Positions 45,508 to 61,044 of a DNA stretch of 64,000 bases are shown piece by piece. Where the stretch lies: positions 248,001-312,000 of the forward strand of contig NZ_JABBFX010000003.1 of assembly GCF_012927085.1 (NCBI RefSeq), in the 5' to 3' direction. Under the pieces are notes generated by a model. The model saw only the letters and a program-made list of their open reading frames with translations, searched no databases and was not told the DNA's origin. The position numbers were made by a program, and so were the translations under genes. Every line of letters starts with the position of its first letter. Positions within the stretch are counted from its first letter, which is position 1. Source of the DNA: Ramlibacter agri (GTDB taxonomy: Bacteria; Pseudomonadota; Gammaproteobacteria; Burkholderiales; Burkholderiaceae_C).

Positions 45508-46617
45508 TCAGAGAACGGCGATCTTGTGGCGGTTGACGAATTCCCAGTCGATCTCGATGCCGTGGCCGGGTCCGGTGGGCGCATGGGCGAAGCCCTGCTT
45601 GTCGATGTGGACGCAGTTCTTCGTGCCGAACTGCACCACGTGCTCGGGCACCAGCTGCTCGAAGAAATCGGTGTTCTTCAAGGTCAGCGCCACCTGCAGG
45701 TTGGCGGCGTCCAGCAGCGGGTTGGGATTGGTGTGGATTTCCAGGTTCAGGCCGAAGGCCTCGGCCAGCGCTGCGGTCTTCTTCACCTGCATGACGCCGC
45801 CCTTGAACGAGATGTCCGAACGCACGATGTCGACGGCGCGCTGGGTGATGTACTCGGGCGTCGTGTAGATGGAGCCTTCGTTCACCTCGACACCGCAGAT
45901 CGGGATGTCCAGCGCGTCGGCCAGCATCTTGTAGCCGTGGATGTCGTAGTCGCGCAGCGGCTCTTCGTACCAGTAGAAGTCCAGCTCCTCCAGCGCGCGG
46001 CCCACGCGCAGCGCCTCGCGCTGGTTGTAGCCGGACACCACGTCGATCATCAGGTTGTAGTCGTCGCCCACGGCCTTGCGCACGGCGGTGCAGCATTCGA
46101 TGTCGAACCTGGGCTCGCCCAGCACGTGCAGCTTGTAGCCCTGGAAGCCGCGCTCCTGGTACTTCAAGGCCTCGTCGACGAACTCGCCCACCGTGGCCTT
46201 GGTGTGCGAACTGGCGTAAGTGGGCAGCTTGTCCTGGTAGGCGCCGAGGATCTTGTAGATCGGCTTGTTCAGGATCTTGCCGTACAGGTCCCACAGTGCC
46301 GTGTCCACGGTGCCGATGGCGAACAGCGGCGTGAACCACAGGCGGTTCAAGGTCCACATGTCCTGCCAGATCGATTCCAGGTATTCCGGGTCGCGGCCGA
46401 TCAGCATGGGCTTGATGGTGGACGCGATGTAGTGCGCCAGGCCCTGGCCGCCGCCGAGGCTGAGCGCCTCGCCGGTGAAGCCCTCGTCGGTGAACACCTG
46501 CACCGCGACCACTTCGGTCATCAGCGCGCGGATCGACTGGCCCTTGATCATCGCCTCCTTGTCGGCCGGCGCATCGGGCCGGCGGAAGGCGGTGAGCTTG
46601 ACGTCGGTGATCTTCAT
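45508..46617 (-). CDS. enolase-superfamily protein (mandelate racemase/MLE type), copy 1
   Basis: A 369-aa enolase-superfamily enzyme. Visible catalytic groups: KLH (QGYKLHVLGE) on strand 2; Asp in LMIDVVSGYN, Glu in YWYEEPLRDYD and Glu in CGVEVNEGS as metal ligands; His in LEIHTNPNP. First of the three tandem paralogs. It starts 15 bp after a LivK-type binding protein gene, so uptake and conversion of the same acid are likely to be co-expressed. A gene triplet like this suggests stepwise handling of related stereoisomers or recent duplication and divergence. Confidence 0.86.
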   Translation of the reverse strand: MKITDVKLTAFRRPDAPADKEAMIKGQSIRALMTEVVAVQVFTDEGFTGEALSLGGGQGLAHYIASTIKPMLIGRDPEYLESIWQDMWTLNRLWFTPLFAIGTVDTALWDLYGKILNKPIYKILGAYQDKLPTYASSHTKATVGEFVDEALKYQERGFQGYKLHVLGEPRFDIECCTAVRKAVGDDYNLMIDVVSGYNQREALRVGRALEELDFYWYEEPLRDYDIHGYKMLADALDIPICGVEVNEGSIYTTPEYITQRAVDIVRSDISFKGGVMQVKKTAALAEAFGLNLEIHTNPNPLLDAANLQVALTLKNTDFFEQLVPEHVVQFGTKNCVHIDKQGFAHAPTGPGHGIEIDWEFVNRHKIAVL

Positions 46618-46632: not shown

Positions 46633-47847
46633 TCAGGCCACCGCGGGCGCGCGGCGGCGGAAGATGCCCTTGAACTCCTTGGAGAAGGGCTCGTCCTCGG
46701 AGGCGACGACGGCCATGGCCATCGCGTCGGTCTCGTAGCCGAAGTGGCGCGCGGGCGTGAAAGTCAGGCGCCCGAACAGGCCGCCGAGGTCGGCGCCGCT
46801 GTCCCAGTACTTGCGGATCGCGTCGGGTTCGAGCGACTTGGTCGCCTCCGCGCCCTTCTTCAGCGCATGCAGGAAGTCGTAGAAGGGCGAGGTGACGGCC
46901 GTGCCGATGATCGTCGGCGAGATGTCCTTGGCGGCCAGCTTGCGCGCGAACTCGATCACGCGCCCCGGCGGCTTCTCGGTGTCGGTGTAGGTCAGCGCCC
47001 GGTAGGTCGCCGCGTAGATGTCCTTGTACATGGCGCCATCGGGCACGGTGCCAGAGAGCAGCAGCCCGGCGCCGCCGACGATGGGCGGCGTCCAGTTCAG
47101 GCGCTTCAGGCCGATGCGCAGCTGCGTCATGTCGTTGAGGTTGGACAGGTGCGTGTCCAGCGCCAGCGCGCCGTCCGCGCGCAGCTTGCGCAGGAAGGGC
47201 GTCATGTCCTGGGTCTTCAGGTTGAACACCTGGTCGGACACGACCTCGATGCGCCTGGCCTTCAGCTCCTGCTGGATCGACTCGCGGATCGAGGCGCCGG
47301 CGGCCGAATCCTCGGTCAGGATGCCCGCCTTCTTGATGCCCATCGCCTGCAGGTATTCCGCGTGGCGCTTCACCTGCGCCAGGCCCGGCGAGCTGAAACC
47401 GTAGTGGTAGGGGAAGCGCGTGCCGTCGCCCACCTCGTCCGCGCTGGAATAGGTGGCCTGCAGCATCTTGCGCGGCCCGCCGATCTGGAAGGCGGCCAGC
47501 GACTGCGAGCTGCCGATCGGGCCGACGAGGATCTGCACGCCGGCGTCGGCCAGCTTGCGCATGACGATGGGCTCGTTGGCGGGGTTGGCCTGGTCGTCCA
47601 CCTCCACCTTCACCAGCTTGCGGCCCAGGATGCCGCCGGCGGCGTTGATCTCCTCGAAGCCGATTTCCGCGGCCTGGAAGTAGCCCTCGAAGGTGCTGGC
47701 CAGCGGGCCGTTGAGCGGCTTGATCCAGCCGAGGCGCAGTTCGTTGTCGGCCGCGCGGCCGGGCAGCGACCACATGCCGGCGCCCAGTGCGGCGGCGCTC
47801 GCGAGCAGCATGCTGCGGCGGCTGGGGTCGTGCGAGTTCTTCGTCAT
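46633..47847 (-). CDS. ABC-type branched-chain amino acid-like substrate-binding protein
   Basis: A 404-aa periplasmic-binding-fold type I protein (LivK-like). A twin-arginine-type signal (PSRRSMLLASAAALGAGMWSLPGRA) precedes LRLGWIKPLNGPLASTFEGYFQAAEIGFEEINAAGGILG, the family signature. Members bind amino acids, amides, urea or aromatic acids for Liv-type ABC importers. No permease or ATPase genes are in the window, so it is an orphan receptor. It stands between an SDR (26 bp upstream) and the enolase triplet (15 bp downstream) on the same strand. Confidence 0.9.
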   Translation of the reverse strand: MTKNSHDPSRRSMLLASAAALGAGMWSLPGRAADNELRLGWIKPLNGPLASTFEGYFQAAEIGFEEINAAGGILGRKLVKVEVDDQANPANEPIVMRKLADAGVQILVGPIGSSQSLAAFQIGGPRKMLQATYSSADEVGDGTRFPYHYGFSSPGLAQVKRHAEYLQAMGIKKAGILTEDSAAGASIRESIQQELKARRIEVVSDQVFNLKTQDMTPFLRKLRADGALALDTHLSNLNDMTQLRIGLKRLNWTPPIVGGAGLLLSGTVPDGAMYKDIYAATYRALTYTDTEKPPGRVIEFARKLAAKDISPTIIGTAVTSPFYDFLHALKKGAEATKSLEPDAIRKYWDSGADLGGLFGRLTFTPARHFGYETDAMAMAVVASEDEPFSKEFKGIFRRRAPAVA

Positions 47848-47873: not shown

Positions 47874-48689
47874 TCAGGCGGTCGCGGCCTGCGGGCCATG
47901 CAGCAGGCGGCTCAAGCCCGCGCCGGCCGTCACGGCCTGGTCGATGGCGATTTCGGAACCGGTGATGAGGCGTGCCTCGGGCAGGCACAGCGCGGCCAGC
48001 GATTGCGCGACTTCGTCCGGGTCCAGCCTGCGCGCCTGTGCGGCGGCCACGCGCTCCGGCGGCGCGGCGCCTTCGGAGCGCTGCAGCAGCACGGTGGATA
48101 GGTGCTCGGTCATCTCCGAGCGCACGCCACCCAGGATGATCGCGTTGGCCCGCACGTTGTCCGGCCAGCCTTCGGCGGCCAGCACGCGCGTCAGGTGCGT
48201 GAGGCCGGCCTTGGCGCTGCAGTAGGCCGCCATCTGCGTGATGCCGATGACCGCGTTGAGCGAAGAGATGTTGAGGATCACGCCATCGCGCTGCCGGCGC
48301 ATGTGCGGCAGCGCGAGGCGGCACAGGCCGAAGGCCGCGGTCAGGTTGACGTTCAGCACGTCGTCCCAATCCTGCAGCGCGACGTCCTGCACGGAAGCGA
48401 TCTGGCCCAGCATGCCGGCGTTGTTCACCAGGATGTCGAGGCGGCCGGTTCTTGCGATGCAGGCGTCCACGAGGCGCTGGCGGTCCGCTTCGGCGGTGAC
48501 GTCCGCTTCGACGAACGTGACGTCGCGATCCTGCGCGCGCAGTTCATCGGCAAAGGCCTGTCCTTGTTCACTGCGGCGGGCGCAGCCGACCACCGTTGCG
48601 CCCAGCGCGCTGAACACCCGCATGACGCCGGCGCCGAGGCCGGAGGTCACGCCCGTGACCAGGATGGTTCGGTTCTTGAGGGAGATCAT
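47874..48689 (-). CDS. SDR family oxidoreductase
   Basis: A 271-aa short-chain dehydrogenase/reductase: [11 protein letters not shown] (TGxxxGxG cofactor loop), NNAG, ISSLNAV with catalytic Ser, and YCSAKAG (YxxxK). A basic patch after strand 2 (GCARRSEQG) hints at NADP preference. It heads the operon with the LivK-type receptor and enolase triplet, so it may oxidise the imported hydroxy acid or sugar acid. The promoter gap upstream (48690-48843) carries two copies of the inverted repeat TCGTC-N6-GACGA. Confidence 0.9.
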
Positions 48690-48736
48690 GGTTTTGCCTG
48701 CGGTGCACTGTAGGCTGCACGGTGTGCGGCGCGGGA

Positions 48737-48752
48737 TCGTCGGAAGCGACGA
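48737..48752. promoter_or_regulatory. TCGTC-N6-GACGA inverted repeat, copy 1
   Basis: TCGTCGGAAGCGACGA, a 16-bp inverted repeat 48 bp upstream of the SDR start and about 92 bp before the APH-kinase gene. The same sequence, with small changes, recurs at 48788, 52146, 52211 and 60311, near genes around the MalT-like regulator. Candidate operator of a shared regulon. Confidence 0.6.
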
Positions 48753-48787
48753 ATCTCCGCGGCCTCGCCTCGGTGTTTTCCCCCGCT

Positions 48788-48803
48788 TCGTCGGAAGTGA
48801 CGA
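48788..48803. promoter_or_regulatory. TCGTC-N6-GACGA inverted repeat, copy 2
   Basis: TCGTCGGAAGTGACGA, 51 bp (about five helical turns) from copy 1 and 40 bp upstream of the APH-kinase start at 48844. Both lie in a 154-bp divergent gap with no other gene, so each divergent promoter could own one site. Confidence 0.6.
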
Positions 48804-48843
48804 TTACCGGGCGCGGCGCGCATCCCTAGAGTTGCCGCTGACC

Positions 48844-49863
48844 ATGGAACGAAAAGACTTTCCCTTCGCGCCAGCCCGCCTGGACGCCTTCCTGCGCCAG
48901 GCGCTGCCGGACCTGCGCGGCGAGCTGGAGCTGGAGCGCATCGGCGGCGGCCAGTCCAACCCGACCTTCTTCGTGAGCTACGCCAACCGCCGGCTGGTGC
49001 TGCGCACGAAGCCCGCGGGCGCGGTGCTGCCTTCGGCGCATGCCATCGACCGCGAGTACCGCGTCATGCAGGCGCTCGCGGCCAGCGACCTGCCGGTGCC
49101 GCGCATGGTGCTGTATCACGCCGGCCTCGACGTCATCGGCACGCCCTTCTACCTGATGGAGCGGGTGGAAGGCCGGGTGTTCGCCGACGCTTCGCTGCCG
49201 GGCCTGGCACCGGCGGAGCGGCGCGCCCTCTATTTCGAGATGGCCGCGACCATGGCGAAACTGCACGCCGTGGACGTCGCGGCGCTGGGCCTGGCCGACT
49301 ACGGCAAGCCGGGCAACTACTTCGAACGCCAGCTGGCCCGCTGGAACCAGCAATGGGGCCTGTCGCGCACGCGGCCCAACCCGGAACTCGACACGCTGCT
49401 CGCGTGGCTGGGCGCGCACCTGCCGCGCGACGAGCAATGCGGGCTGGTGCACGGTGACTTCCGGCTCGGCAACCTCATGTTCCATCCCACCGAGCCGCGC
49501 GTCGTCGCCGTGCTGGACTGGGAACTTTCCACGCTGGGCCATCCGCTGGCCGACGTCGCCTACAACGCCTGCGCCTGGCGCACGCTGCCCGGGGAGTACG
49601 GCGGCCTGCGCGGGCTGGACCTGGCGGCGCTGGGCATCCCGGCGGAGGACGAGTACCTGGCGAGTTACTACCGCGCGGCCGGTGGCGAGCAGCGGGCGGC
49701 GCCCTTCCACTACGGCTTCGCCCTGATGCGCTGGTCGGTGATCTTCGAAGGCATCGCGGCCCGTGCGGCCGACGGCACGGCCGCCGCCGCCGATGCCGCG
49801 GCGGTGGGCGCGCTTGCCGGCGCGATGGCACGGCGCGGCCTGGAAGCCGTGCACGCAAACTGA
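48844..49863 (+). CDS. APH-family phosphotransferase (LvaA/ACAD10-11 kinase-like)
   Basis: A 339-aa aminoglycoside-phosphotransferase-fold kinase: [11 protein letters not shown] (nucleotide loop), [14 protein letters not shown] (catalytic loop with Asp) and [21 protein letters not shown] (metal-binding Asp). It is followed 10 bp later by an acyl-CoA dehydrogenase with the RxxDGPDEVH ending. In human ACAD10/11 these two parts are one protein, and in the Pseudomonas levulinate route LvaA/LvaC do the same: the kinase phosphorylates a 4-hydroxyacyl-CoA and the dehydrogenase-like partner removes the phosphate. So this is likely a hydroxyacyl-CoA kinase, not an antibiotic resistance gene. LvaB-like helper not seen. 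Confidence 0.85.
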
Positions 49864-49873
49864 AGGAGGACCC

Positions 49874-51115
49874 ATGGAATTCGGCTTTTCCCCGGACGAC
49901 CTGCAACTGCAGGAACGCATGCGCGAGTTCATGCAGCGCTTCGTGCTGCCCGCCAACCGCGACTGGCTGCGGCTGGCCGAGCGCGGCGCCTATCCCTCGG
50001 CGATCGTCGAGCCCCTGAAGGCGCAGGCGCGCGAAGCGGGCTTGTGGAACCTGTTCCTGCCGGGGCTGCGCGACGACGAACCGGGCACGCGCCTTGGCAA
50101 CCTGCAATACGCGCCGCTGGCGGAGATCATGGGCCGCATCCCCTGGGCGGCGGAAGTCTTCAACTGCAATGCGCCGGACACCGGCAACATGGAGCTGCTG
50201 CACCTGTTCGCGACAGGGGCGCAGCGCGAGCGCTGGCTGCTGCCGCTGCTGCGCGGCGAGATGCGCTCGTGCTTCGCGATGACGGAGCCGGATGCCGCCT
50301 CGTCCGATGCCACCAACATCGCGACCACGATCCGGCGGGTCGGCGATGAGTACGTCATCAACGGCCGCAAGTGGTTCACCACCGGCGCGAAGCACCCGCT
50401 GTGCCGCTTCGCCATCGTGATGGGCGTGAGCGACGAGGGCGCCGAAGCGGCCCGGCACGAGCGCCATTCGATGGTGATCGTGCCGCTGGACACGCCGGGC
50501 CTCACCCTCGTGCGCGACCTTCCGATCATGAACCACCATTCACCGGAAGGGCACTGCGAACTGCTGTTCCGCGACGTGCGCGTGCCGGTGGCGAACGTGC
50601 TGGGCGAGGAGGGCCGCGGCTTTGCGCTGGCGCAGGCGCGGCTGGGGCCGGGGCGCGTGCACCACTGCATGCGCACCATCGGCCAGTGCGAGCTGGCGAT
50701 CGAGCTGATGTGCGAGCGCGCGCTGGAGCGGCGCGCCTTCGGCAAGGCGCTGGCCGAGCAGGCCAACGTGCAGGACTGGATCGCCGAGTCGCGCGTCGAG
50801 GTCGACCAGGCGCGTTTGCTGGTGCTGCGCGCGGCCTGGCTGATGGACGCGCAGGGCAACAAGGCCGCGCAAGTGGATGTGTCCGCCATCAAGCTGGTGA
50901 GTGCGCGCCTGCAGGTGCGGGTGCTCGACCGGGCGATGCAGGTCTTCGGCGCGATGGGCCTGACCGCGGACACGCCGCTGGCCTTCCTGTGGACCTGGGG
51001 CCGGGCCTTCCGCTTCGTGGACGGCCCCGACGAAGTGCACCTGCGCACCGTGGCGCGGGCGGAGCTGGCGAAGGCGAAGGCGAATCGAGGGGCGACGCTG
51101 GCGTACTACGCTTGA
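49874..51115 (+). CDS. acyl-CoA dehydrogenase family protein (ACAD10/11, LvaC-like)
   Basis: A 413-aa flavoprotein. Features: MTEPDAASSDATNI (FAD/substrate loop), NGRKWFTTGA, MNHHSPEGHCELLFRDVRVP, and the C-terminal VDGPDEVHLRTVARAEL, a variant of the usual substrate-binding end found in the ACAD10/11 group. GAAGGAGG precedes the ATG and the gap to the kinase gene is 10 bp. It probably completes the removal of phosphate from a 4-phosphoacyl-CoA and yields an enoyl- or 3-hydroxyacyl-CoA, which would feed the beta-oxidation genes at 55-61 kb. Pairing is from known systems; the substrate is inferred. Confidence 0.87.
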   Translation: MEFGFSPDDLQLQERMREFMQRFVLPANRDWLRLAERGAYPSAIVEPLKAQAREAGLWNLFLPGLRDDEPGTRLGNLQYAPLAEIMGRIPWAAEVFNCNAPDTGNMELLHLFATGAQRERWLLPLLRGEMRSCFAMTEPDAASSDATNIATTIRRVGDEYVINGRKWFTTGAKHPLCRFAIVMGVSDEGAEAARHERHSMVIVPLDTPGLTLVRDLPIMNHHSPEGHCELLFRDVRVPVANVLGEEGRGFALAQARLGPGRVHHCMRTIGQCELAIELMCERALERRAFGKALAEQANVQDWIAESRVEVDQARLLVLRAAWLMDAQGNKAAQVDVSAIKLVSARLQVRVLDRAMQVFGAMGLTADTPLAFLWTWGRAFRFVDGPDEVHLRTVARAELAKAKANRGATLAYYA

Positions 51116-51116
51116 A

Positions 51117-51247
51117 AGGACTTCCGGACGCAAAGGGCGCAAAAGGACGCAAAAGGACGCAAAAGGACGCAAAAGAAACCCATTTCAATTGGGCTGTTCT
51201 TTTGCGTCCTTTGCGTGACCTTTGCGCCCTTTGCGTCCGGAAGTCCT
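51117..51247. repeat. 131-bp imperfect inverted repeat built from GGACGCAAAA units
   Basis: The left arm holds near-tandem copies of GGACGCAAAA (starting ACTTCCGGACGCAAAGGGCG); the right arm is the reverse complement (TTTTGCGTCCTTTGCG..., ending CCGGAAGTCC). The apex CCCATTTCAATTGGG forms a further small hairpin. It starts two bases after the acyl-CoA dehydrogenase stop, between convergent genes, so a very strong bidirectional terminator or a REP-like element is the likely role. From memory such CGCAAAGG motifs recur in Comamonadaceae genomes. Confidence 0.75.
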
Positions 51248-51282
51248 GCAGTCCAGAAGTCCGGAAGTCCGGAAGTCCTGCA
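51237..51282. repeat. short direct repeats GTCCGGAAGTCC
   Basis: The 14-mer CCGGAAGTCCTGCA occurs at 51237-51250 and again at 51269-51282, with further GTCCGGAAGT units between, at the right foot of the inverted repeat. The remaining bases to the hydratase stop at 51307 hold no gene. Confidence 0.65.
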
Positions 51283-51306
51283 ACTCGTGGGCCAGCGCCT
51301 CCGCCG

Positions 51307-52110
51307 TCAGGTCAACCGCAGTTCCACTTCGCCGAGCGGCCCGAAATCTGCCCGCAACACCTCGCCTGCACTCGCTGCATAGGCCACCGTGCACGGCCCC
51401 ATGCTCACGATGTCGCCGGCGCGCAAGGTCTGGCCTTCGCGACCCAGGTCTGCCACCAGCAGGCTCAGCGCCTGCAACGGGTCGACGCCGCCCGGCGCGC
51501 CGGTGCCGGCGCGGACTTCCTGGCCGCCCGAGGTCAGCCGCACCTTCAGCGCCGGCAGGTCCAGGTCCTGCCAGTCCGTCACCGGCTCGCCGTGCACCCA
51601 GGCGCCGCCGTACAGCAGGTCGGCCAGCATCAGCGGCAGCGGCCGCTGTTCGGGCGCGGTCAGGCGCGAGTCGATCACGTCGATGGCGGGCAGCACCGCG
51701 CCGATCGCGTGCAGCAGCACGTCGCGGCCCGGCAGGTAAGGGTGGCCGCCGATTTCCTCGCGCAGGCGCACGGCCAGCGCCAGTTCGACCCGGCACACCA
51801 GGTGGTCGGAGCGCGGCAGGCTGGCCGGGCTGCGGTGCGCGCTGGCCGAGAACAGGGGCCCGCGCATCGGGCCGCCCAGGCCCAGGGCGGCCAGGCTGGC
51901 CATGTCGCGGGCGCGGATGCGCGTGCCGATGACGCGTCCCCCCAGGCCCGACAACACCGACTGCGCGTGCAGCGCCTGCAGCGCGTAGCCGTCGTGCGGC
52001 GTCAGCGCGGCGCCCGCGTCCATCGGCAGGTCGAGCGGGCTCTGCCTGTGGCGCGCGCCGAGCATGTCGCGCACCAGGGCGAGGTCGCCGGATCCGGAAG
52101 AGGTCGTCAT
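51307..52110 (-). CDS. 2-keto-4-pentenoate hydratase-like protein (FAH superfamily)
   Basis: A 267-aa protein of the fumarylacetoacetate hydrolase fold, MhpD/DmpE branch: GYALQALHAQSVLSGLGGRVIGTRI, CRVELALAVRLREEIGG (metal-binding Glu pair in ELALAVRL), LPAIDVIDSRL, and GPLGEVELRLT at the end. Family members hydrate 2-hydroxypentadienoate or decarboxylate oxo-acids in meta-cleavage routes. No dioxygenase or aldolase of such a pathway is nearby, so the substrate is uncertain. Divergent from the MalT-like regulator; two TCGTC-N6-GACGA sites lie in the gap. Confidence 0.85.
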   Translation of the reverse strand: MTTSSGSGDLALVRDMLGARHRQSPLDLPMDAGAALTPHDGYALQALHAQSVLSGLGGRVIGTRIRARDMASLAALGLGGPMRGPLFSASAHRSPASLPRSDHLVCRVELALAVRLREEIGGHPYLPGRDVLLHAIGAVLPAIDVIDSRLTAPEQRPLPLMLADLLYGGAWVHGEPVTDWQDLDLPALKVRLTSGGQEVRAGTGAPGGVDPLQALSLLVADLGREGQTLRAGDIVSMGPCTVAYAASAGEVLRADFGPLGEVELRLT

Positions 52111-52145
52111 GTGAACATTCTGGAAAGCAGCCTTGCGCCTGCCAA

Positions 52146-52161
52146 TCGTCGGAAGGGACGA
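52146..52161. promoter_or_regulatory. TCGTC-N6-GACGA inverted repeat, copy 3
   Basis: TCGTCGGAAGGGACGA, 36 bp upstream of the hydratase-like gene start, in the 155-bp divergent gap shared with the MalT-like regulator gene. Same arms as copies 1 and 2. Confidence 0.6.
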
Positions 52162-52210
52162 TTCGCAGCACCCCGCCGCTATACTGGACCGGCAACGCCG
52201 CGCAGGCGAT

Positions 52211-52226
52211 TCGTCCCATCCGACGA
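52211..52226. promoter_or_regulatory. TCGTC-N6-GACGA inverted repeat, copy 4 (reverse orientation)
   Basis: Read on the minus strand: TCGTCGGATGGGACGA. It is 65 bp from copy 3 and 39 bp upstream of the regulator start at 52266, consistent with autoregulation. Copies 3 and 4 together bracket the divergent promoters. Confidence 0.6.
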
Positions 52227-52265
52227 TGGGCGCGTCCCGCGCGGCGCGGCACAGTAGTACCCCCC

Positions 52266-54992
52266 ATGACGATGACCGCGAGCACCGGGCGCGCCGCCGC
52301 CGCGCAGCGCCAGAACCTTCACGCCAAGCTCGTGCCGCCCGCCGCCGTACCCTCGGGCGTGCCACGTTCGGCGATCATCGAAGCGGTGTGCGGTCCCCGC
52401 GCGCGCCGCTTCGTGCTGGTGCGCGCCCCCGCCGGCTTCGGCAAGACCACCACCATGCGCGAGTGCGCGGACCATTTCGCGGCGCTCGGCGTGCCCACGG
52501 TGTGGGTCACGCTGGACCGCAGCGACAACGACGCCTCGCGCTTCCTGGGCGTGCTGGAAGCAGCGCTCGCCACCCTTCCGGGCCTGGAAGGCGAGGCGGG
52601 CGACGCGGAGGCCGGCCCAGCCGGCCTGGGCTCGGCGGCGCTGCAGCTGATGCGCCGCATTGCTTCGCACCCGGAGCCCTTCGCGCTGTTCCTCGACGAC
52701 TTCGAGGTCATCCACGAGCCGGGCGTGCAGTCGCTGGTGCGCGAGCTGATGGAAAGCCTGCCTCGCTGGACCCACCTGGTGATCGGCTCGCGCAACCTGC
52801 CCGAGCTGCGGCTGGGCCGCCTGCGCGCGCAGGGCCAGCTGCTGGAAGTGGAGGCCGACCAGCTGCGCTTTACGCTGGACGAGACGCGCGAATTCTTCGC
52901 CGGCCTCAGCACCCAGGCCGCCTTGAGCGCTGAAGACGTCGAACAGCTGCACGCCAAGACCGAGGGCTGGGCCGCAGCGCTGTGGCTGGCCTTCCTGGCG
53001 CTGGAACGCAGCCCGTCGCCGGCCAGCTTCATCGCGCGCTTTTCCGGCACCGACCGCGCCGTGGCCGACTACCTGGCCGAGGAAGTGCTGGCGCGCCAGG
53101 TGCCGGCCGTGCGCGACTTCCTGCTGCGCACCAGCGTGCTCAAGCAGCTGGAGCCGGGCATCTGCGACTTCGTGCTGGAGCGCAAGGACAGCGAAGTCCT
53201 GCTCACCGAGCTCGAAACCACCAATGCCATGCTGGTGCGCGTGGGCGAGGGCGAGCCCAGCTACCGCTACCACGCCATGTTCGGCGGCTTCCTGCGCCAG
53301 CAGCTGGCGCGCGAGCAGCCGGACGCCGGGCCGCGCCTGCACCGGCGCGCCGCCGACTGGTACCTGTCGCACGGCCGGCCCGTGCCCGCCATCGACCACG
53401 CGCTGGAAGGCGGCGACGTCGCGCTGGCCACCGAACTGATAGAAGCCAATGCGGCGAGCCTGCTGGCGCAAGGGCGGCTGCGCATCCTCTCGCGCTGGCT
53501 CGAAGCGCTGCCACCCGCCGTGCTGCAGGAGCGGCCCGAGCTGATGGCGGTGCGCATCTGGGCGGTGTGCTTCACCCGCGGCTCGCGCGAAGCCTCCGAG
53601 CTGCTGGCGCGCAGCGGCCTGGCGGAACGCGCCGACCCGCGCACGCGTTCGCACCTGCTGGCCCTGCAGCCGCTGCTGCTGGCCATGCGCGACCACTTCG
53701 ACGAAGCCTACGCCGCCGGCCGCGAGAACCTGGCGCAGCTGCCCACCGACAACGCGTTCGCCGACATGGTGCTGGCCAATGCGATGACGACGATGGCCGC
53801 GGTGCTGGGCCGGCAGGACGAGGCGCGGCGCCTGCTCGACTCCGCGCGCCGGCGCCAGGGCGCGGGCGGCAGCAGCTTCAACATCATGTACTCGGAGGCG
53901 GCCGAGGGCATCATCGACCTGCAGGAAGGGCGCCTGCGCCAGGCCGCCGCGCGCTTCAAGCTGGCGCTGAACGCCACCGAAGGCCAGACCCACGGCAACG
54001 CCTGGGCCGGTGTGCTGTACGCGTCCACCTGCTACGAGGCGAACGAGCTGGTGCAGACGGCGCACCTGCTGCACGTCTACCTGCCGATCGCGCGCGACGT
54101 GCAGCTGACCGATGAGATGATCTCGGGCTACGTGCTGCTTTCGCGGATCGCCTTCCTGAAGGGCGACGTCGACCACGCCTTCCAGGCGCTGACCGAGCTG
54201 GAATACCTGGGCCACCAGCGGCAGCTGCCGCGCCTGGTGGCCACCGCGCACCTGGAACGCAGCCGCCTGCACCTGCGCCAGGGCCATGCCACCGCGGCGC
54301 GCGAAGAACTGCAGCGCGCCGACGACGCGCCGCTGTGGCAGCAGGCCGCGCAGCTGCGCATGATCGCCAACGACGTCGACTATCTCGCGCTGGCGCGCCT
54401 GCGCTGGGAAGCGGTGGCCGGCGATGCGGCCGAAGCGGCGCGCGGCCTGGCCGACGAAATCGCCACGGCGCAGGCCGGTGGCCGCGAGCGGCGGGCGCTG
54501 AAGCTGAAGTTGCTGCGCGCGATCACGCTGTACCGCGACGAGCGCCGGCCGGCGGCCTTCACGCTGTTCCACGAGGTGCTGCGAACCGCGTCCGCCGAAG
54601 GCTACCTGCGCCTGCTGGTGGACGAGGGCCTGCCTGCAGGCGCGCTCCTGCGCGCCTACCTGGCCGGCGCGCCCGAGCGGCCGCAGGGCGAGGGCGACCC
54701 GATCTTCCAGGAATACCTGCAGCGCCTGCGCGAGGCCTTCGCCGCCGAGAACACGCTGGGCGAAACCGCGGCGGCCGGCGAGGCGCCGCAGCTCGCCGAG
54801 CCGATGACGCGCAAGGAACTGCGCGTGATCCAGCTGCTGGCCGAAGGCTATTCCAACAGCGCCATCGCCGAAAAACTGTTCGTGTCCGACAGCACGGTCC
54901 GCACCCACCTTCGCAAGATCAACACCAAGCTGGGCGTGCACAGCCGCACGCAGGCGGTGGCGATGGCGCGGCGGTGCGGGTTGATCGAGTAG
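52266..54992 (+). CDS. MalT-like LuxR-family ATP-dependent transcriptional activator
   Basis: A 908-aa STAND-type regulator. N-terminal P-loop APAGFGKTT (residues 54-62) and Walker B-like FLDDFEV begin a nucleotide-binding module; TPR-like helical repeats follow in the middle (signal sensing); the C terminus is a LuxR HTH: LTRKELRV-type PMTRKELRVIQLLAEGYSNSAIAEKLFVSDSTVRTHLRKINTKLGV. MalT and AlkS are the known models: ATP and inducer drive oligomerisation on DNA. Two inverted repeats lie in its own promoter gap and others at 48.7 and 60.3 kb, pointing to control of the surrounding hydroxyacid/beta-oxidation genes (inference). Confidence 0.9.
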   Translation: MTMTASTGRAAAAQRQNLHAKLVPPAAVPSGVPRSAIIEAVCGPRARRFVLVRAPAGFGKTTTMRECADHFAALGVPTVWVTLDRSDNDASRFLGVLEAALATLPGLEGEAGDAEAGPAGLGSAALQLMRRIASHPEPFALFLDDFEVIHEPGVQSLVRELMESLPRWTHLVIGSRNLPELRLGRLRAQGQLLEVEADQLRFTLDETREFFAGLSTQAALSAEDVEQLHAKTEGWAAALWLAFLALERSPSPASFIARFSGTDRAVADYLAEEVLARQVPAVRDFLLRTSVLKQLEPGICDFVLERKDSEVLLTELETTNAMLVRVGEGEPSYRYHAMFGGFLRQQLAREQPDAGPRLHRRAADWYLSHGRPVPAIDHALEGGDVALATELIEANAASLLAQGRLRILSRWLEALPPAVLQERPELMAVRIWAVCFTRGSREASELLARSGLAERADPRTRSHLLALQPLLLAMRDHFDEAYAAGRENLAQLPTDNAFADMVLANAMTTMAAVLGRQDEARRLLDSARRRQGAGGSSFNIMYSEAAEGIIDLQEGRLRQAAARFKLALNATEGQTHGNAWAGVLYASTCYEANELVQTAHLLHVYLPIARDVQLTDEMISGYVLLSRIAFLKGDVDHAFQALTELEYLGHQRQLPRLVATAHLERSRLHLRQGHATAAREELQRADDAPLWQQAAQLRMIANDVDYLALARLRWEAVAGDAAEAARGLADEIATAQAGGRERRALKLKLLRAITLYRDERRPAAFTLFHEVLRTASAEGYLRLLVDEGLPAGALLRAYLAGAPERPQGEGDPIFQEYLQRLREAFAAENTLGETAAAGEAPQLAEPMTRKELRVIQLLAEGYSNSAIAEKLFVSDSTVRTHLRKINTKLGVHSRTQAVAMARRCGLIE

Positions 54993-55016
54993 TCGGGGAG
55001 AACAGCCAAACGGTAT

Positions 55017-55799
<783 letters not shown>

Positions 55800-55825
55800 G
55801 CTGCTCCTCCTTGGCCGCGGCGCGC

Positions 55826-57439
55826 TCAGGCGGCGGCGTAAAAACGTTCACCGCGCCGGGCGCGCGCCTGCAGCGTGGCCGGCACCTGCAGGCCCGCTTG
55901 GCGCGCCAGCTCGCACACCTGCGGCAAGCCCAGCCAGTCGGCGTGGTGCAGCGGGCCGCCCAGGTGGCGCGGAAAGCCGAGGCCCAGCTGCAGGCTGATG
56001 TCGATCTCGGCGGCGCTGCGCACGACCCCCTCGTCCAGCAGGACGGCGGCTTCGAGGATGCTTGCGAGCAGTACGCGCTCGACGATCCCGGCCTGGGCCG
56101 CCGCGTCCGTGGACTGGCTTCGGACGACGCCCGTCGGCTGCGTTCGCTCCGCGCCCGCAGGCCGGGTTCGCGCAGCGACCCCGGCATCCGCGCCCCGCAG
56201 CACGGCATCGCCTTCGAACGGCCCCGTCTCCCAACCCGCGCGGCGCATCGCGGCGTCGACCTGCGCGTGCGCCAGGCCTTGTGCCAGCAGGGCTTCGCAA
56301 GCAAGCAGGCACGCCGCGTGCACGCGGCGCACCAGCCCGCCTGCCGCGTCGCTCACGCGCAGCGCGATCTTGCCGGCGGCCGCGGCTTCTGCAGCGGCGC
56401 GCGCGATTGCGCCGGCATCCGCATCCGCGCCGCCCGCAATCTCGACCAGCGTCGCACCGGGCAGCGGCGAAGTGAACACGCAGGCCGGCGAACCGCCGCC
56501 AGACCCCACCCCGCGCGCCAGTTGCCGCGCCAGCCGCTTCACGGCCTGCTGGTTGATGAAGTTGCGCACCAGCGCCGCGGCAGCCTGCGACTTCGCCAGC
56601 GTGGCGAAGGCCTGCGCTTCGGCTTCCTGCGCTTGCGCCGCATCCATGGCCGCGGACTGCGCCAGCAATTCGACGGCCGCCGCGGCCGCCGGCAGGCAGG
56701 CCGGCACGTCGCGCGCGACGATCGCGCGCCGCTCGGCGACCGCGTGGTCGGCCACGGCCAGCGGCAGCCGCTTCGCCGCCCGGCGCTCGTGGGCATCCGC
56801 TGCCGCCGCACGCAGCAGCCGCAGGGCCTGCTCGCGCAGTTCCTCCGGCGCGCTGATGCGATCCACCACGCCGCAGCGCAAGGCCTCGACCGCACCGCGC
56901 GGCGCGCCATCGCTGATCCACTCCAGCGCGTGCGCCAGGCCCGCGACGCGCGGCAGCCGCACGGTGCCGCCGAAGCCCGGGATCAGGCCCAGGCCCACTT
57001 CCGGCAGGCCGATGCGCGCGCCTTCGGCCATCACGCGATGCGTGGCGACCAGCGCGAACTCCAGTCCGCCGCCCAGGGCGAAGCCGTTGATCGCGGCGAC
57101 GCTGGGCACGTCCAGCGCTTCGAAGCGCAGGAACACCTCGTTGCTGCGCCGCAGGTAGTCCAGCAGCTGCGGCCGCGGCTGCGCGAAGGTGGCGGTGAAC
57201 TCGGTGATGTCGGCGCCCACGACGAACACGTCCTTGGCGCTGGTGACGAGGATGCCGCGCAGCCAGGTGACGCTTTCGAGCCGGCGGCGCGCCGTGTCGA
57301 GCTCGGCGACGGTGCGCTGGTCGAACATGTTCACCGCGCCGTCGCGGCGATCGAAGCGCAGTTCGACGAAACCGCCTTCCAGCGGATGCAGGCCCAGGCT
57401 CTCGCCCGCGAACAGGGTGGCGGAGGCGTTCACTTGCAT
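55826..57439 (-). CDS. FadB/FadJ-like protein missing the NAD-binding Rossmann domain
   Basis: A 537-aa relative of the multifunctional fatty-acid oxidation protein (normally about 715 aa). Residues 1-300 are a full hydratase/isomerase: VNMFD, VVGADITEF, GFALGGGLEFAL (Glu 127) and GLPEVGLGLIPGFGG (Glu 147), both catalytic Glu present. The linker KSQAAAALVRNFINQQAVKRLARQLARG is normal; the text then jumps to VFTSPLPGATLVEI, which in FadB comes at the end of the 3HCDH NAD domain. The GxGxxG loop and about 160-180 residues are absent, while the C-terminal dehydrogenase part (VRSAAEIDISLQLGLGFPRHLGG) remains. Start one base after the next gene's stop. Confidence 0.85.
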   Translation of the reverse strand: MQVNASATLFAGESLGLHPLEGGFVELRFDRRDGAVNMFDQRTVAELDTARRRLESVTWLRGILVTSAKDVFVVGADITEFTATFAQPRPQLLDYLRRSNEVFLRFEALDVPSVAAINGFALGGGLEFALVATHRVMAEGARIGLPEVGLGLIPGFGGTVRLPRVAGLAHALEWISDGAPRGAVEALRCGVVDRISAPEELREQALRLLRAAAADAHERRAAKRLPLAVADHAVAERRAIVARDVPACLPAAAAAVELLAQSAAMDAAQAQEAEAQAFATLAKSQAAAALVRNFINQQAVKRLARQLARGVGSGGGSPACVFTSPLPGATLVEIAGGADADAGAIARAAAEAAAAGKIALRVSDAAGGLVRRVHAACLLACEALLAQGLAHAQVDAAMRRAGWETGPFEGDAVLRGADAGVAARTRPAGAERTQPTGVVRSQSTDAAAQAGIVERVLLASILEAAVLLDEGVVRSAAEIDISLQLGLGFPRHLGGPLHHADWLGLPQVCELARQAGLQVPATLQARARRGERFYAAA

Positions 57440-57440
57440 G

Positions 57441-58328
57441 TCAGGCCGCGGTGGCTTGCGGGCCACCGCGGCGCGGAATGGCCGCTTGCGCCTGCTGCCA
57501 GTCGGCATCGGTCCAGCCGGCGAGGTGGGCGAAGTTGCCGCCGCTCGCCTGGTACTGCGCGCCATCGATGGCGATGGTCTGCCCGTTCAGGAATTCGGAG
57601 CCGGGCCCCAGCAGGAACACCGCCAGGTTCGCCAGTTCGTGCATCTGCCCCGCGCGCTTCATCGGGTTGGTGCCCGCGGGGTCGTAGGTGTTGCCGTTCG
57701 GGTCCAGCCGGGCCAGCATCCCTTCAGTGGGAAACAGGCCCGGCGCGATGGCGTTCAGCCGGATGCCGCGCCCGCCCCATTCGACGGCCAGCGACTGCGT
57801 CATCGTGGCGACGCCGGCCTTCGACATCGCGGAAGGCACGGCGAAAGCGCAGCCGTTCCAGACCCAGCTGGTGACGATGGAGACCACAGTGCCCGGGCAC
57901 CCCTGCGCCAGCCAGCGCTTGCCGCACTGCTGCGTCACCTGGAAGGTGCCGCGGAACACGATGTTGGAGATGGCGTCGAAGCCGCGCACCGAGATGTCCT
58001 CGGTGCGGGCGACGAAGTTGCCGGCCGCGTTGTTGACCAGGCTGGTCAGCGGCCCGCCGTCGGCCCAGATCGCATCGAGCAGGGCGGCAATCGCTTCGGG
58101 CTGGCGGATGTCGCAGGCCAGGCCCACGGCCTTGCCGCCATGCGCCTCCATCATCTCGCGCGCCGCCTCTTGCGCCACTTCGCCGCGGCGGCCGCAGACG
58201 TAGACCTCGGCGCCGAGTGACAGGCAGGCTTCCGCCATCACGCGGCCGAGGCCGGTGCCGCCGCCGGTGACCAGCACGCGCTGGCCGCGCAGCAGGCTGG
58301 GCTTGAAGACGAGTCGATCCAGCTGCAT
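57441..58328 (-). CDS. 2,4-dienoyl-CoA reductase-like SDR
   Basis: A 295-aa short-chain reductase of the DECR type. Rossmann loop TGGGTGLGRVM; NNAAGNF; the active-site segment reads FAVPSAMSKAGVATM instead of YxxxK, as in mitochondrial/peroxisomal 2,4-dienoyl-CoA reductases (VPSAxxKAGV); then APGLFPTEGMLARLDPNG also matches that subfamily. A role in removing double bonds from dienoyl-CoA intermediates fits its place in the beta-oxidation operon. Start at 58328 chosen at MQLDRL; a Met 15 bases upstream overlaps the hydratase stop. Confidence 0.85.
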   Translation of the reverse strand: MQLDRLVFKPSLLRGQRVLVTGGGTGLGRVMAEACLSLGAEVYVCGRRGEVAQEAAREMMEAHGGKAVGLACDIRQPEAIAALLDAIWADGGPLTSLVNNAAGNFVARTEDISVRGFDAISNIVFRGTFQVTQQCGKRWLAQGCPGTVVSIVTSWVWNGCAFAVPSAMSKAGVATMTQSLAVEWGGRGIRLNAIAPGLFPTEGMLARLDPNGNTYDPAGTNPMKRAGQMHELANLAVFLLGPGSEFLNGQTIAIDGAQYQASGGNFAHLAGWTDADWQQAQAAIPRRGGPQATAA

Positions 58329-58329
58329 G

Positions 58330-59127
58330 TCAACGCCGGCCAAAATCGGGCCGCCTCTTTTCCAGGAAGGCCGCGATGCCTTCGGCGAAATCCTGCCCCT
58401 GCGTGCAGAGGATCTGGTTGCGGTCTTCCATCGCCATCACGGCTTCCATCGAGGGCCCGTCGATCGCGTGGCGCAGCGCCTCCTTGGTCAGGCGCAGGCC
58501 CAGCGGCGTGGCCAGCAGCATGTCGTCGGCCAGGGCCTGCGCTTGCGTTGCCAGTTCCTCGACGCTGCCAAGGCGGCTGACGAGTCCCAGGACGAGTGCG
58601 CGCTGCGCATCCAGGAAGCGGCCCGTGAGCAGGTATTCGGAGGCGACCGAGGCGCCCACCATGCGGGGCAGGAAGTAGCTCACGCCCATGTCGCAGCCGC
58701 TCAGGCCCAGGCGGATGAAGGCGGCGTTCATGCGTGCGTCCGGCGTTGCCAGGCGCACGTCGCAGGCCAGCGCCAGCGCGAAGCCGCCGCCGGAGGCCGC
58801 GCCCTGCACGATGCCTATCACCGGTTGCGGGCAGCGGCGCATCGCGACCATGATGTCGCGGATGCCGTACTGCACCTGCAGCATGTCCTCGACGCCGCGG
58901 CCACCGACGTCCGCGTCCTTCAGGTCATAGCCGGCGCAGAAGGCGCGGCCGGTGGCGCGCAGCACCACCACGCGCGCCTGCGAGCGGGCATCCAGGCCGC
59001 CGAAGAAATCGCGCAGCTCGCGCGCCAGCTGCGCGTTCAGCGCGTTCAGCCGTTCCGGCCGGTTCAAGGTGAGCCAGGCGGTCTCGCCGCGCAGCTCCAC
59101 CTGCAGGTGCTCGTACTGCGTTGCCAT
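58330..59127 (-). CDS. enoyl-CoA hydratase/isomerase family protein
   Basis: A 265-aa crotonase: WLTLNRPERLNALNAQL, AFCAGYDLKDADV (first oxyanion-hole motif), VQGAASGGGFALALACDVRLA (second), then LGLSGCDMGVSYFLPRMVG, where Asp occupies the position of the usual second catalytic Glu region. Likely substrate an unsaturated acyl-CoA of the same pathway. Its start overlaps the acyl-CoA dehydrogenase stop by one base (TGATG), so they are translationally coupled. Confidence 0.88.
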   Translation of the reverse strand: MATQYEHLQVELRGETAWLTLNRPERLNALNAQLARELRDFFGGLDARSQARVVVLRATGRAFCAGYDLKDADVGGRGVEDMLQVQYGIRDIMVAMRRCPQPVIGIVQGAASGGGFALALACDVRLATPDARMNAAFIRLGLSGCDMGVSYFLPRMVGASVASEYLLTGRFLDAQRALVLGLVSRLGSVEELATQAQALADDMLLATPLGLRLTKEALRHAIDGPSMEAVMAMEDRNQILCTQGQDFAEGIAAFLEKRRPDFGRR

Positions 59128-60275
59128 CACAGCCCCCGGGCGATCACTTCCTTCATGATCTCGCTGGTGCCGCCGTAGATGCGCTGGATGCGCGCATCGG
59201 CGTACATGCGGGCGATCATGTACTCGTTCATGTAGCCGAAGCCGCCGAACAGCTGCAGGCATTCGTCGACCACCTTGGCCTGCTGCTCGCTGGCCCACAG
59301 CTTGATCATCGAAGCCGTGGTGGTGTCCAGCGTGCCGGCCACCAGGCGCTCGACGCAGTGGTCGACGAACACGCGCGCGGCCTTCGTGGTCGAAGCGACT
59401 TCGGCCAGCTTGAAGCGCGTGTTCTGCATGTCGAACAGCGGCTTGCCGAAGGCCTGGCGCTCGCGCGTGTAGGCCAGCGTGGCTTCCAGCGCGCCTTCCA
59501 TGCAGGCCGCGGCGATCACGCCGATGATGGTGCGCTCGTAAGGCAGGTCGGACATCAGCTGGAAGAAGCCCTGGCCTTCCTGGCCGCCCAGCAGGTTCTC
59601 CGCCGGCACCTGCACGTCGTCGAAGAACAGCTCGGACGTGTCCTGGCCCTTCAGGCCCAGCTTGTCCAGCACGCGGCCGACGCGGTAGCCCTTGCAGCCT
59701 TCGGTCTCCACGATCAGGATCGACATGCCGCGGGCGCGCTGCTCAGGGTCGGTCTTGGCCACCACCAGCACCAGTTCGGCCAGGAAGCCGTTGGAGATGA
59801 AGGTCTTGGAGCCGTTGACGACGTAGTGGCCGCCTTGCTTCACGGCGCGGGTGCGCACGCCCTGCAGGTCGGAGCCGGCGCCCGGCTCGGTCATCGCGAT
59901 GGCGCCCACCAGCTCGCCGCTGGCCAGGCGCGGCAGGTACTTGCGCTTCTGCGCCTCGGTGCCGTGGCTCAGGATGTAGTGCGCGACGATCGAATGCACC
60001 GAAGCGTTCATGCCGGTGAGGGCGCGGCGCGACATCTCGTCGTACAGCACCGCGACGTGGCGGAAGTCGCCGTCGCCGCCGCCGTACTCGGCCGGGATGT
60101 CGGCGCACAGCAGGCCCAGCGCGCCGGCCTTGCGCCACAGGGCGTGGCCGACGTGGCCGCGCTTGCGGGCCTCCTCGTCGTGCGGGAGCATCTCGGCCTC
60201 GACGAAGCGGCGCACCGTGGCGCGCCAGGTGTCGAGGTCCTCGTCCATCCAGGAAGGGCGGAAGTCGATTGGCAT
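59127..60275 (-). CDS. acyl-CoA dehydrogenase
   Basis: A 382-aa FAD enzyme that introduces the alpha-beta double bond in acyl-CoA. Seen: AMTEPGAGSDLQGVRTRAV (FAD/substrate motif), NGSKTFISNGFLAELVLVVAKTD, FFDDVQVPAENLLGG, and the C-terminal LFGGFGYMNEYMIARMYADARIQRIYGGTSEIMKEVIAR. The IYGGT (not IYEGT) ending puts the catalytic Glu elsewhere, as in long-chain/isovaleryl types. Operon member between two hydratase genes; an upstream inverted repeat (60311-60326) sits 36 bp before its start, inside the preceding gene. Confidence 0.93.
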   Translation of the reverse strand: MPIDFRPSWMDEDLDTWRATVRRFVEAEMLPHDEEARKRGHVGHALWRKAGALGLLCADIPAEYGGGDGDFRHVAVLYDEMSRRALTGMNASVHSIVAHYILSHGTEAQKRKYLPRLASGELVGAIAMTEPGAGSDLQGVRTRAVKQGGHYVVNGSKTFISNGFLAELVLVVAKTDPEQRARGMSILIVETEGCKGYRVGRVLDKLGLKGQDTSELFFDDVQVPAENLLGGQEGQGFFQLMSDLPYERTIIGVIAAACMEGALEATLAYTRERQAFGKPLFDMQNTRFKLAEVASTTKAARVFVDHCVERLVAGTLDTTTASMIKLWASEQQAKVVDECLQLFGGFGYMNEYMIARMYADARIQRIYGGTSEIMKEVIARGL

Positions 60276-60285
60276 GGTGGGATCT

Positions 60286-61044
60286 TCAGCGGGCGCGCAG
60301 GCGCGCGGTATCGTCGGAAGCGATGAAATCGGCCGCGCAGGCGCGCGAGCGTTCGGCCTCGAGGGCCAGGCCTTCGCGCAAGGACACTTGCAGGCCGTCG
60401 GCTATCAGGCGCTTGTATTGCTGCAACATCTGCGGCTGCACGGCGAGCATGTCGCGCGCGAGTTGCAAGGCTTCGGGCAGCAACTGCTCCGGCGCGACGA
60501 CGCGGTTGACGAGGCCCCAGGCTTCGGCGCGCTGGGCGTCCAGGAAATTACCGGTCAGCGAAAGCTCCTTGGCGCGGTAAGGGCCGACCAGGCGCGGCAG
60601 CAGCTGCGACAAGCCCCAGCCGGGGATCACGCCCACGCGTGCGTGGGTGTCGGCAAAGCGCGCCTCGCTGGAGGCGAGCAGCACGTCGCAGGCCAGCGCC
60701 AGCTCGAAGCCGCCGGTGACGGCGACGCCGTTGATGGCGGCGATCACGGGCTTGCTGCACCGGCGCAGCGCCAGCACCGGGTCGAACTCCGGCGCCGAGG
60801 CGAGAGCCTGGCCCGGGTCGGTGGCCGACGCGAGCTCCTTCAGGTCCAGTCCGGCGCAGAAGGCCTTGCCGGCGCCGGTGAGAACGAGCACGCGCACTTG
60901 CGGATCCGCTTCGCAGCGTTCGAGTGCCACGACCAGCTCGCGCCGCAGCTGCATCGAAAGCGCATTGGCGGCCTGCGGCCGGTTCAGCGTCAGGACGGCG
61001 CAACCGGCGAAGGGCTGCGCCAGCAGGACCAAGGCCGCGCTCAT
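60286..61044 (-). CDS. enoyl-CoA hydratase/isomerase family protein
   Basis: A 252-aa crotonase: AVLTLNRPQAANALSMQL, KAFCAGLDLKELAS, INGVAVTGGFELALACDVLLA, ADTHARVGVIPGWGLSQLLPRLVG (second catalytic region with Val in place of Glu at the usual position), then LTGNFLDAQRAEAWGLVNRVV. Its start overlaps the stop of the indolepyruvate oxidoreductase gene (ATGA), and the acyl-CoA dehydrogenase starts 10 bp after its stop. Substrate unknown. Confidence 0.88.
   Translation of the reverse strand: MSAALVLLAQPFAGCAVLTLNRPQAANALSMQLRRELVVALERCEADPQVRVLVLTGAGKAFCAGLDLKELASATDPGQALASAPEFDPVLALRRCSKPVIAAINGVAVTGGFELALACDVLLASSEARFADTHARVGVIPGWGLSQLLPRLVGPYRAKELSLTGNFLDAQRAEAWGLVNRVVAPEQLLPEALQLARDMLAVQPQMLQQYKRLIADGLQVSLREGLALEAERSRACAADFIASDDTARLRAR
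60311..60326. promoter_or_regulatory. TCGTC-N6-GATGA, imperfect copy 5 of the shared inverted repeat
   Basis: TCGTCGGAAGCGATGA differs from copy 1 by one base. It lies within the last codons (SDD) of the hydratase gene, 36 bp before the acyl-CoA dehydrogenase start. Possibly an internal operon promoter site; being in coding sequence, coincidence cannot be excluded. Confidence 0.35.

Follow-up and report, generated by a model that had tools for sequence, protein, structure and literature searches.

To our knowledge, few MalT-like STAND regulators have a known operator. MalT of Escherichia coli has the domain order NTPase, TPR and GerE, and is switched on by inducer and ATP. The closest described system is that of Actinoplanes sp. 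SE50/110 where, according to the available parts of the report, the MalT operator is TCATCC-5nt-GGATGA and overlaps the −35 region, the 3′ end of the palindrome lying 34.4 ± 1.0 bases before the transcription start (PMC7567727). The site was described at 17 start sites in one large genomic island and is conserved in related islands, and the same source quotes the MalT box of E. coli and Klebsiella as GGGGA(T/G)GAGG (PMC7567727). Here we analysed a window of 64,000 nucleotides from the Ramlibacter agri genome (C3:248001-312000; 7.2 Mb, 13 contigs) in which a 16-base palindrome with TCGTC-N6-GACGA arms recurs near acyl-CoA genes and the gene of a MalT-like STAND/LuxR regulator. Positions given without a contig or locus are those of the window.

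Working from sequence comparison, we propose with a probability of roughly 0.88 that this palindrome is the operator of an activator, the MalT-like protein encoded at 52266-54992, which would act on acyl-CoA islands and on its own gene. The proposal is based on the clustering of the sites, their link to one clade of the regulator, a fixed distance to a −10 hexamer and a matching recognition helix. An initial annotation of the window had joined the motif, the MalT-like regulator and the acyl-CoA genes into one regulon, an idea that the comparison across genomes strongly supports.

A scan of the window found exact copies of the motif at 48737, 48788 and 52146 (all scored on the plus strand) and one-mismatch copies at 52211 (minus; TCGTCGGATGGGACGA) and 60311 (plus; TCGTCGGAAGCGATGA). 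When up to three mismatches are allowed, nine matches are found compared to 2.2 expected, and none of 100 shuffles reaches nine (maximum 6). The other four matches carry two or three mismatches, with those at 46694 and 62884 within genes and the remaining two at 1158 and 14500. Both copies in the divergent gap at 48.7 kb are exact, as the initial annotation had it. Its pair of oppositely oriented copies in the 52.1-52.2-kb gap is present too, except that the copy at 52211 has a mismatch and is thus not exact. The one-change copy it placed before an acyl-CoA dehydrogenase is the one at 60311, which lies 35 bp before the start of that gene but falls within the 3′-terminal part of an enoyl-CoA hydratase gene (60286-61044, minus strand) and not in a free gap. 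The spacing of four copies 36-48 bp before start codons needed only a correction, to five copies at 35-47 bp. The operators and the predicted −10 hexamers are as follows, with the strand of the gene that each faces.

48737..48752, minus strand: operator 1, towards the short-chain dehydrogenase (SDR)-LivK-enolase genes; exact copy, TACAGT at offset 24
48707..48712, minus strand: predicted −10 hexamer TACAGT of the SDR promoter
48788..48803, plus strand: operator 2, towards the APH-type kinase and an acyl-CoA dehydrogenase (ACAD); exact copy, TAGAGT at offset 23
48827..48832, plus strand: predicted −10 hexamer TAGAGT of the APH promoter
52146..52161, minus strand: operator 3, towards a hydratase/decarboxylase-like gene; exact copy, CAGAAT at offset 23
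52117..52122, minus strand: predicted −10 hexamer CAGAAT of the hydratase-like gene
52211..52226, plus strand: operator 4, towards the regulator's own gene; perfect arms and one central mismatch, CACAGT at offset 23
52250..52255, plus strand: predicted −10 hexamer CACAGT of the regulator gene
60311..60326, minus strand: operator 5, towards an ACAD gene; one arm mismatch, GAAGAT at offset 23
60282..60287, minus strand: predicted −10 hexamer GAAGAT of that ACAD gene

The 7.2-Mb genome contains four exact copies, not hundreds of scattered ones, and all four are clustered in C3:296737-314659, an 18-kb stretch around the MalT-like gene. One of them is found just outside the window at C3:314644 and has a one-mismatch neighbour at C3:314607, the two occupying the gap from which a thiolase gene and a LivK gene diverge (L031:5608-5660). 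With up to two mismatches the genome has 56 matches compared to 32 for the reversed control. We also used a relaxed pattern, TCGTCNNAANNGACGA (TCGTC-NNAANN-GACGA), which was chosen after inspecting same-genus loci and was likewise controlled by its reversal. It matches six times in this genome, and all six matches fall within C3:296737-329461, that is 33 kb around the regulator gene. A third outer operator, at C3:329446 (L151:7947), fits the relaxed pattern with two mismatches to the original motif and precedes a second LivK-like gene. Both outer LivK/ABC-transporter operons also carry enolase-superfamily genes.

The putative reader of the motif is encoded between operators 4 and 5.

52266..54992, plus strand: MalT-like STAND/LuxR regulator of 908 amino acids, with a P-loop NTPase, a MalT-type TPR region and a GerE helix-turn-helix (HTH)

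Its N-terminal P-loop NTPase has the sequence APAGFGKTT (AAA_16 at 4e-7, just under the gathering score), and residues 20-426 match PDB 8bob, a MalT structure, at 1.5e-51. The TPR sensor region (residues 464-798) matches TPR_MalT, PF17874, at 3.2e-24, and the C-terminal HTH (residues 846-901; GerE, PF00196, 8.8e-18) contains the helix STVRTHLRKI. With 351.5 bits the protein falls below the cut-off of 537 of the equivalog model for MalT as maltose regulon activator (NCBIfam NF003420). A total of 2240 proteins among 7996 scored are homologues at E ≤ 1e-80.

To relate the operator to the regulator, we compared genomes with and without a homologue. With the own genome included, homologues at E ≤ 1e-60 are present in 13 of 59 same-genus genomes and in 12 of 399 genomes of the order, while a phylum sample has them in 17 of 398 genomes at E ≤ 1e-70. 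The exact motif is found in five of 60 same-genus genomes; four of these (G000, G015, G034, G083) have a homologue, whereas G064 shows no homologue at E ≤ 1e-60, its copy lying inside a predicted gene. Where the homologue has 45 % identity or more (17 genomes), the relaxed pattern matches 105 times compared to five times for the reversed control, and 80 of the 105 matches are within 60 kb of a regulator on the same contig. This excess is absent from 22 genomes of the same genus in which no homologue reaches E ≤ 1e-60 (16 matches versus 16) and from five genomes with only a 30-44 % identical homologue (G012, G072, G217, G177 and G196; 6 versus 6, none within 60 kb).

The association extends to an out-of-sample set. 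In eight genomes from other genera or families (G108, G409, G192, G098, G299, G197, G329 and G373), 27 of 36 relaxed matches are near the regulator and the control has no match. The set was completed by a Paracoccaceae plasmid (CP031586.1), whose regulator is 38.8 % identical and which has three operators in three gaps, preceding genes annotated as acyltransferase (fadA), TRAP-transporter receptor and acyl-CoA ligase. The homologue of Cupriavidus metallidurans CH34 (NC_007974.2:2182607-2185273; 53 % identity) is accompanied by three perfect-core sites and that of C. necator N-1 pBB1 (47 %) by four, while no operator was found within 33 kb of the homologue of Cupriavidus sp. EM10 (37 %). The island of one relative (L078; G016:C39:5509-85145) is much larger, with 11 operators spread around the regulator across about 80 kb, compared to 33 kb for the island of the window.

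We also counted perfect 5-6-5 palindromes in gaps irrespective of their letters. In 13 operator-bearing locus pieces, hand-chosen among the site-bearing loci, TCGTC was counted 34 times, with every one of the 13 pieces contributing, and the next word four times. When 13 further loci were treated in the same way (11 belonging to other homologues, together with L082 and L115), no word led, the best reaching four.

The presence of the operator follows the recognition helix of the regulator. RTH(L/V)R is found in all 22 operator-bearing regulators read (that of the window, 20 loci and L127). The reading covered 45 loci, 41 of which gave a row; L064, L065, L122 and L127 had no C-terminal match, and L127 was read separately. 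Among 21 loci without a perfect core, L082 has RTHLR and L115 has RSHLR, both with a nearby one-mismatch site, and in the other 19 the first R is replaced by K or D, in 15 of them as KSH or KWH. A further 22 loci, several of which cover the same regulators twice, have no operator in a gap and none has RTH; two have the core inside a gene. For L040-L050 and L129-L141, which span only 4.0-5.8 kb, a missing operator carries little weight; the longer loci without a gap operator are L062, L063, L064, L087, L119-L121, L123, L128 and L142-L150. In a tree of 39 regulators, a clade of 23 rows with support 100/100 unites the 21 operator bearers with L082 and L115; its closest neighbours in the tree form a KSHLR/KTHLR/KAHLR group (support 88/71).

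Two observations concern relatives of the regulator. In two loci with sister-clade TVKSHLR regulators, L119 and L128, a gap contains the palindrome TGGTCCGWWCGGACCA (at L119:2983 and L128:23692), which is one base off in each arm; there is one site in each of these two similar gaps and none in L142, the third TVKSHLR locus of that size. Separately, one of the three regulator copies of G020 (L083; G020:C11:52480-55099) is broken between residues 661 and 662, leaving two frames that overlap.

To estimate where the operator lies relative to the promoter, we examined 72 perfect-core sites from 26 locus pieces in both directions (144), the one-mismatch site at 60311 not being part of the set. The set also excludes L082, L115 and L119-L123, which lack a perfect core, L086 (G064), which lacks a regulator, L088 and L089 (parts of used loci), L151, the L031 copy of 62884 and sites close to the end of a locus. 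TANNNT occurs at 29 of 432 positions at offsets 22-24 compared to 12 of 8208 over the rest of the 0-59 range (binomial P of about 4e-38, with related loci treated as independent). The strict TANNNT is present at offsets 22-24 in at least one direction for 28 of the 72 sites; the −10 hexamer is degenerate, with TAGACT as its best form. Each of the eight own-genome sites is followed by xANNNT, at offset 23 or 24 (chance of about 0.02 per offset). A central A/T pair is found in 66 of the 72 sites, and 61 of these 66 are in gaps according to the script's gene caller, which took the 48.7-kb gap as coding and is poor on L083, L084 and L126, whose sites stay counted.

A hexamer 22-24 bases after the operator places the centre of the operator near −42, close to the −41.5 typical of class II sites, so that it overlaps the −35 region as a class II activator site does. 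The −10 spacing predicts a distance of about 34-36 bases from the motif to the transcription start. Predicted leaders are 11 nt for the SDR, 5 for APH, 0 for the hydratase-like gene, 4 for the regulator and 0 for the ACAD gene, so that predicted transcription starts fall 0-11 nt before the ATGs at 48689, 48844, 52110, 52266 and 60275 and several mRNAs of the window may be leaderless. A Shine-Dalgarno-like word precedes none of ten genes with a predicted leader of up to 8 nt compared to 33 of 51 with a longer one, on start codons chosen by the script. This is suggestive of possible leaderless mRNAs in an activator regulon.

Several observations weigh against the MalT-like protein as activator of these sites. 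The strict TANNNT is missing at offsets 22-24 in 44 of the 72 sites. The relaxed pattern was derived from same-genus loci, and the fair test is the one in the other genera and families and on the Paracoccaceae plasmid. Some genomes have a close regulator and few near sites (0 of 4 in G329, 1 of 2 in G034, 1 of 2 in G197 and 2 of 4 in G299). In G008 (2 of 7 near) and G076 (1 of 9 near) most matches are clustered on another contig (C12 and C166 respectively), possibly as a result of assembly breaks. The bare arms without the central AA have 97 matches in the own genome and 78 in the control; they are not clearly enriched, so the central A/T pair belongs to the signal, and we rejected TCGTC-N6-GACGA alone as a genome-wide marker. 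Finally, other regulator genes are found near some sites: a LysR-type gene (L151:10260-11171) about 2.3 kb from the 329446 site, and GntR-/YdcR-like and KstR-like TetR-type genes on the Paracoccaceae plasmid locus.

Those neighbours suggest another explanation, namely that the palindrome is the operator of a different island-borne regulator, for example a TetR-type repressor, and that the MalT-like gene simply counts among its targets. Short-armed palindromes are typical of TetR operators. Clustering of 390 proteins from 27 locus pieces places the regulator family in 20 pieces, thiolase in 12 and ACAD in 11. The loci were fetched via the regulator, so its own rank is uninformative and only the absence of a second common regulator counts. 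Among the 30 most widespread families of these pieces we recognised no other regulator family, those outside the window being judged by their first residues only. Five of the seven pieces without the regulator family are flanking stretches (L031, L074, L076, L080 and L084), and in the other two, L112 and L126, the gene caller missed a regulator that tblastn found. No rival regulator was seen in the operons of the window or in the scanned genes of L031, the HTH scan covering part of the locus genes. Moreover, the presence of the site goes with the recognition helix and clade of the MalT-like regulator, and a strict −10 distance at the −35 position suits an activator. We give this explanation a very small chance of being right.

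Alternatively, the MalT-like protein may bind the motif as a repressor, or as an activator at some sites and a repressor at others. Several gaps have two sites, so one dimer could occlude a neighbouring promoter, and the paired sites 52146/52211 and 48737/48788 face opposite genes. We consider this very improbable given that the site stands in the place of the −35 element at a fixed −10 distance, a position from which, in the available parts of the report, the Actinoplanes MalT activates (PMC7567727). Chance or local composition, by which GC-rich DNA would often yield TCGTC...GACGA and similar gaps would have been picked, finds some support in the bare-arm counts but has next to no probability and was rejected by the cross-genome tests, because the full motif behaves otherwise in window shuffles, genome scan and cross-genome controls, and the 15 bare-arm places that were examined, out of 97, are all inside predicted genes with TANNNT at offsets 22-24 in 0 of 15.

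The genes behind the operators and further along the same operons are the following.

47874..48689, minus strand: SDR, first gene behind operator 1 (adh_short, 7.3e-54)
46633..47847, minus strand: LivK-like periplasmic binding protein (Peripla_BP_6, 9.5e-39)
43267-44367, 44372-45484 and 45508-46617, minus strand: three enolase-superfamily (MR_MLE) genes (MR_MLE_C, 4.8e-49, 8e-50 and 8.7e-52)
48844..49863, plus strand: APH-type kinase (PF01636, 9.2e-55; open reading frame from 48826)
49874..51115, plus strand: ACAD (Acyl-CoA_dh_1, 4e-37; open reading frame from 49763)
51307..52110, minus strand: FAA-hydrolase-fold protein (PF01557, 3.4e-6; NCBIfam 8.5e-19, below cut-off), resembling 2-keto-4-pentenoate hydratase / oxalocrotonate decarboxylase
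59127..60275, minus strand: ACAD, first gene behind operator 5 (Acyl-CoA_dh_1, 5.7e-42)
55017..59127, minus strand: further beta-oxidation genes, namely SDR (55017-55799), ECH/3HCDH-like (55826-57439), 2,4-dienoyl-CoA-reductase-like SDR (57441-58328) and enoyl-CoA hydratase (ECH; 58330-59127)
60286-61044, minus strand: ECH
61041-63965, continued in L031:42-3584, minus strand: IOR-like 2-oxoacid:ferredoxin oxidoreductase (PRK13030 model, 1110 bits)

The genes from 60286 run past the end of the window and include there an ECH-like gene and a thiolase-like one, the latter starting beside operators C3:314607 and 314644; the thiolase-like gene was named by its place in a widespread gene family and by the first-gene tally. 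The presence of an IOR-like oxidoreductase inside a beta-oxidation operon hints at a conversion of 2-oxoacid to acyl-CoA there. In the tally, 60 genes taken as the first behind a site are mainly for acyl-CoA enzymes, transporter binding proteins, SDRs, CoA ligases and CoA transferases; they include thiolase (9), ACAD (9), CoA-transferase III (6), binding protein (5), SDR (5), AMP-ligase (4), ECH (4), AtuA (2) and APH (2). The target genes differ between genomes.

We hypothesize that the two GerE domains of an oligomer of the regulator would bind the two TCGTC(S) arms, with the operator replacing or overlapping the −35 element and a degenerate −10 hexamer starting 22-24 bp beyond. By analogy with E. 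coli MalT, the STAND protein would be switched on by an inducer and ATP. In its active form it may recruit sigma-70 RNA polymerase to eight or more promoters of the 33-kb stretch: those of the SDR-LivK-enolase genes, APH-ACAD, the hydratase-like gene, its own gene, ACAD-ECH-SDR, thiolase-ECH-IOR and the two LivK/ABC-transporter operons. By also acting on its own gene, the regulator would set up a positive feedback and hence a steep response. We infer binding, the oligomeric state, activation as the sign of regulation and an acyl-CoA or acid as inducer.

When all parts are joined, we see an even chance that an undescribed STAND/LuxR clade with the helix (S/T)T(V/I)RTH(L/V)R reads a −35-overlapping TCGTC-SNWWNS-GACGA and drives acyl-CoA islands in Burkholderiales and, by transfer, in Rhodobacterales, with the −10 of some promoters, four of the window's five among them, near enough to the start codon for the mRNA to be leaderless or nearly so, and with a sister TVKSHLR clade that may read an arm differing by one base, TGGTC. 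If true, the pair of sister clades would provide a code by which the operator could be read from the helix. For a whole clade, the operator would emerge together with the promoter geometry and the specificity helix, and the regulon could be predicted in any genome encoding such a regulator. Promoters would be ready for finding the inducer, and the substrate of the acyl-CoA islands would become a question for a reporter screen.

No report of this motif was found in the open-licence literature among the matches listed, and in a search on its letters the matches listed have the 10-mer only and none has the 16-mer. The available parts of PMC5760070 (IniR), PMC8265627 (Vibrio malK) and PMC2864759 (the C. 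metallidurans genome) make no mention of the operator. The initial annotation had gone further and anticipated a new operator class for a LuxR/STAND protein. This is too strong: a wholly new class is ruled out because the MalT of Actinoplanes, in what is available of the report, already has a palindrome overlapping the −35 region (PMC7567727). As far as the searches go, the operator is a variant of the MalT type whose arm sequence, spacing, metabolic role and taxonomic spread are undescribed among the open-licence matches listed.

The regulator shares with E. coli MalT the order of NTPase, TPR and GerE domains. The operators differ in that the sites here are inverted TCGTC-N6-GACGA repeats and not GGGGA(T/G)GAGG direct repeats, the E. 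coli MalT boxes being direct repeats according to the title of Vidal-Ingigliardi 1991. PimR-type SARP-LAL regulators are, in the available text, grouped by name with the large ATP-binding LuxR regulators and act as pathway-specific activators, but PimR has heptameric direct repeats, no LuxR HTH and a site upstream of the −35 region (PMC5930380). Compared to the MalT of Actinoplanes, from what is available of that report, the arms are TCGTC(S) instead of TCATCC, the spacer is 6 nt instead of 5 nt and the site 16 bp instead of 17 bp; the island there is actinobacterial, maltose-regulated and amino-acid-metabolism-like, whereas the one here is of acyl-CoA catabolic genes (PMC7567727). What the two systems have in common is a MalT-like LuxR regulator (an activator in Actinoplanes), a palindrome overlapping the −35 region at many promoters of one island, conservation of the site in related islands and a fixed distance to the promoter, which here comes from the predicted −10 spacing (PMC7567727).

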